NCBI RefSeq assembly: GCF_014529625.1
Contig: NZ_CP076039.1
Span: 3,658,001-3,722,000 of the forward strand
DNA length: 64,000 bases
Reading direction: 5' to 3'
Source of the DNA: Candidatus Pelagisphaera phototrophica
GTDB taxonomy: Bacteria > Verrucomicrobiota > Verrucomicrobiia > Opitutales > Opitutaceae
Below, one piece after another: positions 53,473 to 60,074 of the stretch. Positions within the stretch are counted from its first letter, which is position 1; each line of letters starts with the position of its first letter. A program made the position numbers and the translations under genes. The notes beneath the pieces were generated by a model. It was given only the letters and a program-made list of their open reading frames with translations. It was not told where the DNA came from and did not search any database.

Positions 53473-53724
53473 CTAGGCTTCGTAATTGCAGTCAATCTCA
53501 GTGACTTGACCACAAGCGCAAGTAACCACGATCTTCGTCACCCGTCCCTCTTCCGTAACGTAAGACACATTACTTCCCGATTCGCCTTCAGACTCTTCCA
53601 CCAGACAGCTATCAGAGTCCTTGTCCCCCTCAGGCTCAATCCCTCGGACCGCACTTTTCGAGACGTCTTTGGACTTTTTTGGCGCTTCGCCTAGGTTCTC
53701 GCGGCCTGAAAGAAAGTTATCCAT
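53473..53724 (-). CDS. Small acidic cysteine-containing protein in the flagellar cluster
   Basis: An 83-residue protein. The first 50 residues are acidic and probably disordered (EPEGDKDSDSCLVEESEGE). The last 30 form a likely beta unit ending VVTCACGQVTEIDCNYEA, with a CxC and a further Cys that could bind metal. It follows motB by 18 bases, and 130 non-coding bases separate it from flgF. No family recognised. Confidence 0.6.
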   Translation of the reverse strand: MDNFLSGRENLGEAPKKSKDVSKSAVRGIEPEGDKDSDSCLVEESEGESGSNVSYVTEEGRVTKIVVTCACGQVTEIDCNYEA

Positions 53725-55448: not shown

Positions 55449-56264
55449 TTACTTATGCATCACACTCGTAATATAGCTTCGTAAGCTTATGATGGCCTGA
55501 GAGTGAATCTGACAAATCCGAGATTCCGTAAGGCTAAATACCTCCGCGATTTCCGCTAGTCGCATGTCTTGGAAATAGTACATGGCGAGAACCTTACGAG
55601 GAACCTCAGGCAATTGGTTGATTCTTTCGGCTACCAGCTGAGTAACTTCGTCCTTCTCCATCTTCGATGTCACCGGGACAACTCCTTCGTCAGGAATGAT
55701 CTCGCTAAGGTCGGCCGAGTCTGAATCGTCACCGCCTGAATTGGACGTGTTGTCCAGTGGCAAGAAGCTGATAGGGCGGACTTCCGCCATTAAAGAATTG
55801 TACTCCTTATGAGTTAAGCCTAACTCCAACCGAATCTCTTCCTCCTCTGCAGGACGCCCTAGTTTTTGCTCAAGCTCTTCAACCGTTTTTCGAAGTTTTT
55901 TGAAATTTGTACGAGCATTCCGGGGCATCCAGTCCATCCGGCGCAATTCGTCCAGGATCGCTCCTCGTATGCGCATGGCGGCATAAGATCCAAACGACTT
56001 TTTCTGCTCTGGGTCGTATTTCTTCAGCGCACTGATCAATCCTGTGATCCCAACGCTGTGTAGGTCCTGCTCATCAATGTGAGGAGGCAAATTGATTTTT
56101 ATACGAGTGACAATCGACTTAACCAAGGGAAGGTAGGTCTCGAAGAGGGCTTCCTGCTGAACCGGCGGTTTCGACGATTCATCGTTTTTCGCGTATACCT
56201 TGGCTACTTTCGCCTTGTCCATTTTAACTTCTGTTTTGGGGCTCTTAACTATCGTTTGGTTCAT
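55449..56264 (-). CDS. fliA: RNA polymerase sigma factor for flagellar genes (sigma-28, FliA)
   Basis: A 271-residue sigma-28. A non-conserved N-terminus of about 35 residues is followed by region 2 (FETYLPLVKSIVTRIKINLP, DLHSVGITGLISALKKYDPE, FGSYAAMRIRGAILDELRRMDWMPR), region 3, and region 4 (RKVLAMYYFQDMRLAEIAEVFSLTESRICQIHSQAI). Directs late flagellar transcription, probably of flagellin. Lies between the 90-residue membrane protein and motA. No flgM gene was recognised in the window. Confidence 0.95.
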   Translation of the reverse strand: MNQTIVKSPKTEVKMDKAKVAKVYAKNDESSKPPVQQEALFETYLPLVKSIVTRIKINLPPHIDEQDLHSVGITGLISALKKYDPEQKKSFGSYAAMRIRGAILDELRRMDWMPRNARTNFKKLRKTVEELEQKLGRPAEEEEIRLELGLTHKEYNSLMAEVRPISFLPLDNTSNSGGDDSDSADLSEIIPDEGVVPVTSKMEKDEVTQLVAERINQLPEVPRKVLAMYYFQDMRLAEIAEVFSLTESRICQIHSQAIISLRSYITSVMHK

Positions 56265-56276
56265 GGTGTTTTGTCC

Positions 56277-56549
56277 CTATACGGGTTTCGCTGCTTGCTC
56301 TTTAGCTTCTTGTCTATTGCGCTCTTCAGCTTCGACCATCGCCGCAACGGCGGTCTGATGCTTCTCCATGAGCATTTCCTTTACATTCCTTATCCAAATA
56401 TATGCGATCCATCGGAACAGTATTCCGAGGACAACGCTGCCAATACTCGCCTGAAATAGACCCTCTGTCGGCGTCTTGCCGGAAAGTAGCGCCATTACGA
56501 ATACAACGGTAAAACCGATCAGTCCTCCAAGTATAATCGCGAACTTCAT
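56277..56549 (-). CDS. Small membrane protein between flhF and fliA
   Basis: A 90-residue protein with two transmembrane helices (about 3-22 and 33-55) and a charged helical tail rich in Glu, Lys and Ala (KEMLMEKHQTAVAAMVEAEERNRQEAKEQ). Its ATG overlaps the flhF stop (ATGA), so it is translationally coupled to flhF. In most flhF-fliA clusters this place is taken by the MinD-like flhG, which is absent. No family recognised. Confidence 0.72.
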   Translation of the reverse strand: MKFAIILGGLIGFTVVFVMALLSGKTPTEGLFQASIGSVVLGILFRWIAYIWIRNVKEMLMEKHQTAVAAMVEAEERNRQEAKEQAAKPV

Positions 56550-57844
56550 GCGGTTGCCATTTCCTCGCTCTTAGAGTTTTCTACGGGTCCCCTGGGTGCA
56601 TTTCTTCTCGCCGAGGCAAGTTCGCGCCCGCGAGGAAATGTCTTTTCCAGCAGATAGCTGAAAGGGTCCATTGTATAGTCGCCAGCCGGGTTGGGTCCGT
56701 AGCTAAAAAACAATGGGCAAACTGATTTTCCCAACGCGAACTTCCAGAGTTTTCCTGCCTTTCGAGTTTCATCCAAATGCGTGAATACAACGTGAGTAGC
56801 TCCCATTCGATTCCCCGCGAGCAAAGCGTCGGAAATTGATTCCGTTTCGTACGCGGCATTCACCACTAGAATTCTCTCATCCGCACCCATTTCGTCGAGC
56901 AGTTCTCGACAGCTATCCACGGCGTCAGCGTCGCCAAGATTTAGGCCTGGCAAATCGGCGTATATCGGCTTCCGGTTGGAACGCTCTTCAACTTCGTCCA
57001 ACGACCGATACAACGGCGCCCCCATGATTTCACAAAAGGCTTCTAGCCCGTCTGAGGAATTCGGAACAGAACCATCGACCTTGAGAACGACCGGTTCCAG
57101 TCCATTAATAAATACGTCGGCTGACAGCGCTTTGCTCAACGCGCTGGTCTTGCCCACACCGCTAGCTCCTATAAAGGCACGGCAGTCTCCTTTGAGCTTG
57201 GAAGGTGCATCAGGAAATTGATTACGCAGCCAATCACATATACGGCTGTAAATTTCCAAGTTGGGGACTTCTCCCATCTCTCGAAATCCCAACTCGTAGC
57301 AAATGCGTTCAACCATCGAGTCATCGAACCCAACGGAACGAAGCATCGACACAGCCCGCTCCACATACTCAATGGTTCCTCGTCTTACAGGGTTTGCTGC
57401 GGATCCCAGTCTGGGACTTGCACCAGTAGCTAGACCGTCCTCTAAACTTGAAAAATAACCGTCACTGCTCACTTCCTCAGAAGCCTTGGAATACAAGCTG
57501 GCAATCGGATTCTTTGAACTGGGTTTCCTAGACTTTGCGTCCAGGTCTCCATCAGCAGGCATTTTCTTCTCAACAGATATTTCCTCCTTCGATTCACCCT
57601 CTCCAGTCGTTTTAGCTGCTCCCGGCTTTTTCTTTGTGGGCACTTCTACGACGATTTCCAAACGAGGACTCTTAAGAAATCCTGCGATGCCGTTGTTGAC
57701 CTGCTGTTTAACTGCAATTACTTTAGCCGACTCTCCAAACTTCTGCTTAATCGCGTTAACCGCTTTAGAGGCATCGTCGGCGACGATTTTAAATTGTACT
57801 GTATCCGCTGACACGGTTTCGTTTTTCAGATTGGGGGTGCTCAT
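56546..57844 (-). CDS. flhF: Flagellar SRP-like GTPase FlhF (divergent)
   Basis: A 432-residue protein. The N-terminal B domain has VQFKIVADDASKAVNAIKQKFGESAKVIAVKQ, the FlhF hallmark. The linker (70-150) is charged. The NG domain has a normal P-loop GASGVGKT at 226-233. Later motifs deviate: where FlhF usually has DTAGR there is ADLPGL, and the TKLDE specificity motif reads THLDE. This may affect GTP hydrolysis or selectivity. FlhF places the flagellum, usually at a pole. Nineteen bases after flhA. Confidence 0.88.
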   Translation of the reverse strand: MSTPNLKNETVSADTVQFKIVADDASKAVNAIKQKFGESAKVIAVKQQVNNGIAGFLKSPRLEIVVEVPTKKKPGAAKTTGEGESKEEISVEKKMPADGDLDAKSRKPSSKNPIASLYSKASEEVSSDGYFSSLEDGLATGASPRLGSAANPVRRGTIEYVERAVSMLRSVGFDDSMVERICYELGFREMGEVPNLEIYSRICDWLRNQFPDAPSKLKGDCRAFIGASGVGKTSALSKALSADVFINGLEPVVLKVDGSVPNSSDGLEAFCEIMGAPLYRSLDEVEERSNRKPIYADLPGLNLGDADAVDSCRELLDEMGADERILVVNAAYETESISDALLAGNRMGATHVVFTHLDETRKAGKLWKFALGKSVCPLFFSYGPNPAGDYTMDPFSYLLEKTFPRGRELASARRNAPRGPVENSKSEEMATA

Positions 57845-57863: not shown

Positions 57864-60074
57864 CTAGTTACTTTGAGCCATCCCTACGAGCTCCTCCCTT
57901 GGAGCCGTTTTCGCATCTTCCGATATCTTTCGTATTTGATCCTGAACAAATTCCGGGAACACAATAATCGAGTAATTCTGTATCTCCGTAGCCGCCGGCA
58001 ACTCTTGGTAACTTAGAATATTCAGCTTTGGCAAAGACGGCTCAAAGAAGCGCTTGAATGGCAGGCGTATTTCCGCTGCGGTTACAAATACTGGCATTAG
58101 TCCGTTCTCAATCATGTCATTCGCTTTCAATGCTAATTCACGTAGCAGGTGCTGTGCCAACTGCGGATCCAGTGATAAAGTATAATCTGTATTCGTTCTC
58201 TGGATTTTGGTAGCTATGACCTGCTCTAGTCGAGGATCCATTGTTATCCCCTTGAGAACGCCTTTTTCCGATTCATACGCAGGAACGAAGAACTCTCCTA
58301 ACTTTCTCCTTACGTACTCGGACAGATCATCAGGATTTTTGGATATCGAAGCAAAATCTGCAATCGCTTCCAAAACCAAGTTTATGTTTCGTATGGATAC
58401 ATTTTCCTTTAGCAAATTCTGTAATACTCGATGAATGACCCCAATGTTGACGAGATCTGGAAGCAACTCGGAAATTAATGCCGGGTGGTCTTCTTGAACG
58501 TGGTCGATGAGTTTCTGCACATCCTGCCGTCCCACGAGATACATCGCGTTGTTTTTAAGAACCTCAGATAGATGTGTCACAAGTACGGAATTGGAATCGA
58601 CAATCGAGAAGCCATTCATTTCCGCATTCTTCTTTTCGTCTTCATCGACCCAAACGGATTCGATTCCAAAGACAGGTTCTACGGTTGGGATACCATTGAT
58701 TGGAATCTCACTGTTCGATACATTCATGGCCAGCCAACGGTTGGGCATGACCTCTCCGCGAACAATCTCCTTATTATGCAAGAGAAAACGGTACTCGTTG
58801 CTTTCCAGTTCCAAATTGTCCCTAACAGCAATCGGTGGAACAACGATGCCTAGCTCCCTCGCTATGGTCTTCCGAACGCCCGTGACTCGTTCCAAGAGAT
58901 CCCCTCCTTGAACTTTATCCGCTAGAGACAGTAGGTTGTATCCTATCTCCAAAGCGAATACGTCCACTTCGATGAGTTTTTCAAACTCCGCGGGCATACT
59001 CTTCCCGTCGTCTTGCTCACCGCTCGAACCGGACTCCATTTCCGCGCGTCTTTCATCCTCCATTTTAACTGCCTTCTCTCGTTCCTTAACTTTCTCCGCT
59101 TTCCGTAAACTAAACATAAGGGCAGCAAATACTCCCGCCACCATCATGAATGGCATTTTAGGCATCCCAGGAATAAACCCTACTCCAACCAGCATCAAAG
59201 CAAGAAGGCCCATTGCTTTCGGATAAGCTGAGAGCTGGCCTCCGATTTGGTCTCCAAGATTATCAGAGTTTCCAGATGTCCGAGTTACCAGAACACCAGC
59301 GGCGAGTGATACAATCAGTCCCGGTATCTGAGAGACAAGACCATCCCCGATAGACAACAGAGTAAACTTCTGCACGGCATCTCCAAACACTAAACCATGC
59401 TGAATCATCCCGATAGCGATTCCTCCCAATACATTAATCGCAGTGATCAATATCGCAGCGACCGCATCTCCTCTAACAAACTTGCTAGCACCGTCCATCG
59501 CCCCGTAAAAGTCGGCTTCCTTTTGAATTTTCTCGCGTCGCTCGGTCGCCTTAAGCTCATCAATAATTCCCGCATTAAGCTCAGCATCGATCGCCATTTG
59601 CTTACCGGGCATCGCATCCAAGGTAAATCGGGCGGCCACCTCCGCGATACGGCCCGAACCCTTAGTGATGACCATAAAGTTGATCGCCACCAAAATTAGG
59701 AATACAACCGCTCCTACTAGGTAATTATTTCCGACTACAAACGTGCCAAAAGACTCGATTACGTTGCCAGCATCCCCCTTTAAGAGAATGAGCTTCGTAG
59801 ATGCTACGTTCAGCCCAAGCCGGTAAATGGTAAGTCCAAGAAGTATCGTCGGAAAACCGGTAAATTCAGATGGCTCCTTGACATAGATGATCACGAGCAT
59901 TACCAGGAGAGAGGCCCCTATGCTCCCCACCAACAATAGGTCTAGCATCACTGCCGGCAATGGCATAAACAGCAGCAATACTGTACCGAACATGCCGAGC
60001 GTTACAACCGTATCACCCTTCTTCAAAAATCCTAGAATTTTGCCTAGGTCAAAATTTCCTTTTGCCGATTCCAT
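57864..60074 (-). CDS. flhA: Flagellar export gate protein FlhA
   Basis: A 736-residue protein with eight N-terminal transmembrane helices (to about 330). The conserved FHIPEP-like stretch reads as VTKGSGRIAEVAARFTLDAMPGKQMAIDAELNAG. The large cytoplasmic export domain has VPPIAVRDN and the later LVNIGVIHRVLQNLLKENVSIRN. Slightly longer than usual (about 690) because of a charged linker (MEDERRAEMESGSSGEQDD) near 345. Start overlaps the flhB stop by one base (TAATG). Confidence 0.97.
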   Translation of the reverse strand: MESAKGNFDLGKILGFLKKGDTVVTLGMFGTVLLLFMPLPAVMLDLLLVGSIGASLLVMLVIIYVKEPSEFTGFPTILLGLTIYRLGLNVASTKLILLKGDAGNVIESFGTFVVGNNYLVGAVVFLILVAINFMVITKGSGRIAEVAARFTLDAMPGKQMAIDAELNAGIIDELKATERREKIQKEADFYGAMDGASKFVRGDAVAAILITAINVLGGIAIGMIQHGLVFGDAVQKFTLLSIGDGLVSQIPGLIVSLAAGVLVTRTSGNSDNLGDQIGGQLSAYPKAMGLLALMLVGVGFIPGMPKMPFMMVAGVFAALMFSLRKAEKVKEREKAVKMEDERRAEMESGSSGEQDDGKSMPAEFEKLIEVDVFALEIGYNLLSLADKVQGGDLLERVTGVRKTIARELGIVVPPIAVRDNLELESNEYRFLLHNKEIVRGEVMPNRWLAMNVSNSEIPINGIPTVEPVFGIESVWVDEDEKKNAEMNGFSIVDSNSVLVTHLSEVLKNNAMYLVGRQDVQKLIDHVQEDHPALISELLPDLVNIGVIHRVLQNLLKENVSIRNINLVLEAIADFASISKNPDDLSEYVRRKLGEFFVPAYESEKGVLKGITMDPRLEQVIATKIQRTNTDYTLSLDPQLAQHLLRELALKANDMIENGLMPVFVTAAEIRLPFKRFFEPSLPKLNILSYQELPAATEIQNYSIIVFPEFVQDQIRKISEDAKTAPREELVGMAQSN

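Follow-up and report, generated by a model that had tools for sequence, protein, structure and literature searches.

Which protein follows flhF in a flagellar operon when flhG, its usual neighbour, is not there? The question is raised by a locus of Candidatus Pelagisphaera phototrophica, within a stretch of 64,000 nucleotides (hereafter, the window) taken from a genome of one contig (4.09 Mb, completeness 97.87%). The genes on the minus strand run in the order flhA, flhF, an open reading frame (ORF) of 90 codons, fliA and then genes of the motA/motB type, the last pair being assigned by reading the ORF list. A first-pass annotation of this DNA described the product of the 90-codon ORF as a two-helix membrane protein lying between flhF and fliA and overlapping flhF by 4 bases, and proposed it as a new element that had taken the flhG slot. 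The ORF coordinates, the hydropathy and a structural model all agree with that description. The interpretation is partly supported, and our results redirect it: the small protein is probably a divergent relative of FlgV, an old member of the operon, located at the basal body. The corresponding features are the following:

56277..56549, minus strand: gene of the putative FlgV-like two-helix membrane protein, 90 amino acids, ATG start (ORF and conservation)
56546..56549, minus strand: ATGA overlap of 4 bases between the flhF stop and the small-protein start (ORF coordinates)
56484..56540, minus strand: first membrane helix, residues 4-22, with GGxxGF including a GxxxG spacing (hydropathy and alignment)
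56391..56447, minus strand: second membrane helix, residues 35-53, with LFRW (hydropathy and alignment)

The gene is real and under purifying selection. Compared with a copy from the same genus, nonsynonymous divergence (dN) is ~0.18 and synonymous divergence (dS) ~0.97, a ratio of ~0.2, and in an alignment of 28 small proteins, which leaves out loci L009 and L019, six columns are invariant, all of them except the start methionine inside the two helices predicted by hydropathy. In the first helix, G8, G9 and F13 are found in 28/28 sequences and G12 in 26/28; in the second, L44 and W47 are kept in 28/28 and R46 in 24/28. Residue 33, just ahead of the second helix, is Q in the window and D in 17, Q in 8, E in 2 and N in 1 of the 28 (acidic in 19/28). 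The tail is unconserved, differing in both length and sequence from protein to protein, and the charged, coiled character attributed to it at first holds for the closest relatives, the tail being shorter and Ala-rich elsewhere. An AlphaFold2 prediction, run together with 11 proteins from the FlgV position, gives helices at residues 2-22 and 27-87 (mean predicted local distance difference test, pLDDT, 88.9; predicted template modelling score 0.52). Scans against Pfam and NCBIfam found no family over cut-off for the small protein, the weak Pfam matches below it being DUF3021 (E 0.042) and DUF350 (E 0.15). A chance ORF could be suspected from the shortness of the frame, but the dN/dS ratio, the five invariant residues besides the start and the constant genomic place described below leave this explanation a negligible probability.

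The association of the small protein with FlhF extends through the lineage (phylum, class, order and family are used here as the kinship labels of the genome collection). A search with the single window sequence matched 47 of 100 family genomes, counting that of the window, and among the loci of the 30 best of these, again with the window, flhF lies directly upstream of the small protein in 30/30 and fliA is matched in 27/30. The 4-base overlap is common to 11 of these loci, 26 have the small protein at most 20 bases from flhF, and the widest gap is 160 bases. In a sample of 132 genomes of the order, a lineage-specific FlhF profile scores at least 242 bits in 40; 29 further genomes, whose matches did not exceed 25 bits and fell mostly in frames of 700-900 amino acids, were dropped. 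The small-protein profile matches 30 genomes, all of them among the 40 with FlhF and none among the other 92, in line with the co-occurrence expected from the first reading of the locus; the profile rows were drawn in part from these same genomes (9 of the 40 FlhF-positive and 4 of the 30 small-protein-positive). By coordinates, no more than 130 bases separate the small protein from flhF in 29 of the 30. Eight of the ten FlhF genomes without a profile match carry a diverged ORF of 72-118 amino acids between flhF and fliA, which a local search with the small-protein profile finds at E 0.0075 to 7.7e-10 and which passes a two-helix filter in 7/8 cases; of the remaining two, one locus stops at a contig edge and the other (G493, a genome of ~1 Mb) has no slot ORF nearby. 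A further match, in G128, was discarded, its frame being interrupted by three internal stops and open for 10 amino acids.

The lineage seems to be without flhG, both beside flhF and elsewhere in the genomes searched, and this conclusion is better supported than the assignment to FlgV. In the window genome, searches with PF13614 (AAA_31) and PF01656 (CbiA) each return the same three ATPase genes (Soj/ParA, an orphan ParA and Mrp/ApbC), none near flagellar genes; the orphan ParA-like gene, at G000:C1:2353996-2354553, lies within an open frame of 349 amino acids. An FlhG profile finds nothing there at E <= 1e-20, its best score being 41 bits on the Soj gene, and across the 132 order genomes, with up to 18 candidates scored in each, its best match is 58 bits and covers part of the model. 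Across 387 genomes of the phylum, with up to 6 candidates scored in each, 32 match at E <= 1e-20, none of them in the window's class. Fourteen of the 32 score above 390 bits, and these are exactly the 14 genomes with a canonical FlhF (G205 with an FlhF score of 131 bits, the other 13 with at least 151), an agreement that is partly by construction because the profile was built from 13 of the 14, through FlhG genes picked beside canonical flhF, so that G315 alone is independent; what the phylum-wide search adds is that none of the other genomes among the 387 scores near them. Six genomes outside the 14 (G132, G146, G243, G327, G396 and G451) hold FlhG/MinD-like ATPases of 320-342 bits; in five of them the match begins no earlier than model position 15, beyond the DQAxxLR region, and in G396 at position 6. 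They are possibly MinD paralogues. The other 12 matches range from 75 to 223 bits. None of 50 lineage FlhF sequences comes from a locus with flhG beside flhF; for 32 of them the complete source genome was searched and gave no full FlhG match, and the other 18 were read locally. The combination that the first-pass annotation had named as contrary to its proposal, an flhG gene elsewhere together with no conservation of the small protein beside flhF, was thus not found: the searches detected no second site with an flhG gene, and the small protein and FlhF occur together.

The loci of relatives that hold flhG tell how the slot may have arisen. Of the 14 phylum loci with canonical FlhF that were read, 12 have sequence continuing past flhG, and in all 12 an ORF of 77-119 amino acids with two hydrophobic helices follows flhG directly; fliA comes next in 9, as in the published position of FlgV, and the other 3 have no fliA match in the stretch read. 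A second two-helix ORF in L107 (89 amino acids, beginning within the end of flhG) was left out. Judged by these gene orders, the small protein looks like a long-standing member of the operon that stayed next to flhF after the loss of flhG, because a two-helix protein already follows flhG in the relatives that keep it. On the same ground we rejected a direct replacement of FlhG, and the proposal of a new element in the flhG slot is not supported. Among more distant bacteria, we surveyed 80 named FlhG loci, the best 80 among the matches listed. A fliA match lies downstream in 54, and a stricter hydropathy cut finds a two-helix ORF in 4 of them (three planctomycetes and one record titled deltaproteobacterium); in most proteobacterial loci with a fliA match, fliA abuts or nearly abuts flhG, leaving no room for an ORF. 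With a looser cut, applied to 26 loci chosen for a gap or an absent fliA match, 11 have such an ORF, 7 of them spirochaetes, and none was found in two Treponema loci or in any Bacillota locus among the 26, though FlgV has been reported from Bacillota (PMC11607428, excerpts).

The position is that of flgV, described between flhF/flhG and the sigma-28 gene in spirochaetes, Firmicutes, bacteria of the Planctomycetes-Verrucomicrobia-Chlamydiae group including Verrucomicrobia, and others; FlgV itself has two helices, an intramembrane arginine in the second, a polar tail and a C-terminal peptide (PMC11607428, excerpts). Profile-profile comparison relates the window family to the two-helix set of flhG-holding relatives (E 2e-7, probability 90) and to proteins in the FlgV position from spirochaetes and planctomycetes, with one further such protein (E 3.1e-6, probability 75), and the flhG-holding set to the same proteins (E 2.1e-6); these E-values are those of single comparisons, and the FlgV-position rows were assigned by gene position and not taken from a published alignment. 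In each of three comparisons the real score stood above all 100 controls made by permuting columns within 10-column blocks (real versus best permuted score, 33.2 versus 24.9, 34.1 versus 15.7 and 39.7 versus 31.9), and FliQ, used as a single-sequence control, gave no match.

Several observations weigh against a kinship with FlgV. Against spirochaetes alone the probability for the window family is 51, and against planctomycetes alone 52, while that of the flhG-holding set against planctomycetes alone is 19; scored alone against the window-family profile, 4 of the 12 flhG-side proteins reach E < 0.001, 6 lie at 0.018-2.3 and 2 are unlisted. The arginine column of the FlgV-position proteins aligns to Q33, another arginine, R46, standing later in the second helix, and the C-terminal peptide that ends 7/7 spirochaete proteins is absent from the window and the planctomycete rows. 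Moreover, hairpins can look alike. If a two-helix protein of unrelated origin had merely come to occupy the FlgV position, this would account for these points, as well as for the identity of 14-24% to the FlgV-position proteins of other phyla and for the 8 of 12 flhG-side proteins without a significant score of their own; yet the same slot is filled throughout the flhG-holding relatives and the profile scores exceed all permuted controls, and we regard an unrelated origin as unlikely. Given the shifted arginine column and the missing C-terminal peptide, the strict assignment to FlgV Type-1 was dropped and we use the name FlgV-like.

In Borrelia, FlgV forms a ring at the junction of the MS and C rings, and its loss results in fewer and shorter filaments (PMC11607428, excerpts); in Helicobacter pylori, a ring is found in the same place, and a GFFxG motif of the first helix was modelled against FliF (PMC10655999, excerpts). 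By analogy with these systems, the small protein is probably an inner-membrane hairpin of this kind, joining a ring at the MS/C-ring junction. Both ends of the helical hairpin would probably be cytoplasmic. Its first helix may pack, through the GxxxG spacing and phenylalanine, on a further basal-body membrane helix, for which the C-terminal helix of FliF is the likeliest candidate; the cytoplasmic helical tail would extend towards the C ring. The protein would thus form or join the ring and aid filament assembly, as FlgV does in Borrelia and Helicobacter. Topology, location, FliF contact and phenotype are all inferred here.

The change in FlhF is more surprising than the small protein itself, and is the stronger finding. 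Its features in the window are:

56546..57844, minus strand: flhF, divergent, with the NG fold kept in the model (TIGR03499 and fold model)
57146..57169, minus strand: P-loop GASGVGKT, with the lysine kept in the window (motif alignment)
57044..57076, minus strand: G2 segment DGSVPNSSDGL in place of DT[FY]R.....Q, with the Arg and Gln lost (motif alignment)

The window FlhF scores 52.6 bits against TIGR03499, whose cut-off of 174.15 is exceeded in 3 of the 387 phylum genomes only; with scores so far below the curated cut-off, the FlhF of this lineage may easily be overlooked in annotation. Nevertheless, the best solved relative of the lineage profile is FlhF (2px0/3syn, E 1.2e-19), and the model of the window protein (mean pLDDT 77.9, with a poor linker) matches the signal recognition particle (SRP) GTPases. 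Ranked by E-value, the SRP54/FtsY chain 5l3s comes first and FlhF 2px0 and 2px3 second and third, and the highest template modelling scores on the target belong to FlhF (2px0, 0.81; 2px3, 0.82). Fourteen of 14 FlhF sequences from flhG-holding genomes keep the P-loop Lys, DT[FY]R.....Q and the G3 Arg, and the G4 Lys is present in 13/13 that reach it. In 50 sequences of the lineage, including the window and leaving out L166 (contig end) and L172, the P-loop Lys is kept in 27 (Arg in 22, Cys in 1), the G2 Gln in 2, the Arg at +3 in 20, and neither the G3 Arg nor the G4 Lys in any, while the G3 Asp is present in 50/50 and His stands for the G4 Lys in 48/50. In SRP GTPases the altered positions are catalytic ones. 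The letters that replace them are themselves conserved (usually [DE]xxxPN, and T/S-H-x-D in 48/50), which suggests that this FlhF has been remodelled rather than plainly decayed. In a quick tree of 103 sequences, the 50 form one clade (Shimodaira-Hasegawa-like approximate likelihood ratio support 100, stem 2.46); a single origin of the altered FlhF is likely, and not proven, because long stems can attract.

In the sequences compared, the loss of FlhG and the change in FlhF go together. FlhF and FlhG have been presented as a conserved switch that governs where flagella form and how many, in which the Gln of the DQAxxLR motif of FlhG stimulates FlhF (PMC12826062, excerpts), and the FlhF of this lineage probably works without that switch. 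One may go further and suppose that the switch was dismantled in this one lineage, with FlhG lost once, FlhF turned into a GTP-binding or nucleotide-blind scaffold and the retained FlgV-like hairpin serving as its membrane dock; if so, flagella would be placed and counted without GTPase cycling driven by FlhG. We consider this complete scenario improbable.

A related idea, modified from that of the first-pass annotation, takes the small protein for a dedicated partner or membrane anchor, which would recruit the altered FlhF to the membrane or keep it there and, with FlhG gone, would do some of the work of FlhG. The closeness of the two genes, their frequent overlap and the strong alteration of FlhF in the same lineage speak for it, and FipA is a precedent for a small membrane protein as a partner of FlhF (PMC11620751, excerpts). 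However, FipA is of a different build, the two-helix protein in this place is older than the loss of flhG, and the tail, the part able to reach FlhF, is unconserved. Two genomes in which the operon is broken add to this: in G471 (L169) the small protein is 2 bases from fliA and ~7 kb from flhF, and in G212, of another order (L055/L172), it is 3 bases from fliA, with flhF ~13 kb off on the other strand. We regard a dedicated FlhF partner as unlikely. That the same two genomes keep fliA as the neighbour could instead point to control of FliA (sigma-28) by a membrane-bound protein in the role of FlgM; for FlgM itself (PF04316) no match was found in the window genome, though fliA is present. The absence says little, given that PF04316 matches just 3 of 14 control genomes; the conserved residues sit in the membrane helices and not in a cytoplasmic part, and Borrelia retains flgV without sigma-28 (PMC11607428, excerpts). 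We hold a role as FliA regulator to be unlikely. The flanking genes are:

55449..56264, minus strand: fliA (sigma-28; family scan)
57864..60074, minus strand: flhA (family scan)

Further along, after the motB-type gene, there is an ORF of 83 amino acids with a Cys-containing end (CACGQ; 53473-53724, minus strand).

The combination of an FlhF without FlhG and with altered motifs is a natural experiment on which functions of FlhF need GTP hydrolysis, and the retention of the small protein suggests that a FlgV-like protein can function where FlhG is missing. Among the open-access papers listed in our searches, no title or abstract opening concerned a lineage with an FlhG-less, motif-altered FlhF; the main text of the one Opitut paper (PMC7203096), as far as it was covered, makes no mention of FlhF.

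Among the known systems, FlhG (FleN, YlxH) shares with the small protein the gene position after flhF, but it is a MinD-type ATPase of ~300 amino acids with DQAxxLR, and the small protein has none of these. FipA (PMC11620751, excerpts) is likewise a small membrane protein with its gene near flhF; it differs in its 163 amino acids, single helix, DUF2802 domain, which the Pfam scan did not match in the small protein, and location downstream of the operon, and according to those excerpts it occurs only alongside both FlhF and FlhG. The Type-2 FlgV of Helicobacter and Campylobacter (Botting et al. 2023, PMC10655999, excerpts) is a small two-helix protein encoded before fliA and carries a GxxxG-type motif and a phenylalanine in the first helix, as does the window family with GGxxGF, a likeness compared by motif only; its gene, however, sits between flhG and fliA. 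As for Type-1 FlgV (BB0268; Zamba-Campero et al. 2024, PMC11607428, excerpts), the window lineage differs in lacking flhG, in having D, Q, E or N in the arginine column of the second helix, with an arginine further on, in lacking the C-terminal peptide and in a tail shorter than that of the 7 spirochaete proteins, and it resembles this protein in its two helices, its operon position and its profile similarity to FlgV-position proteins.
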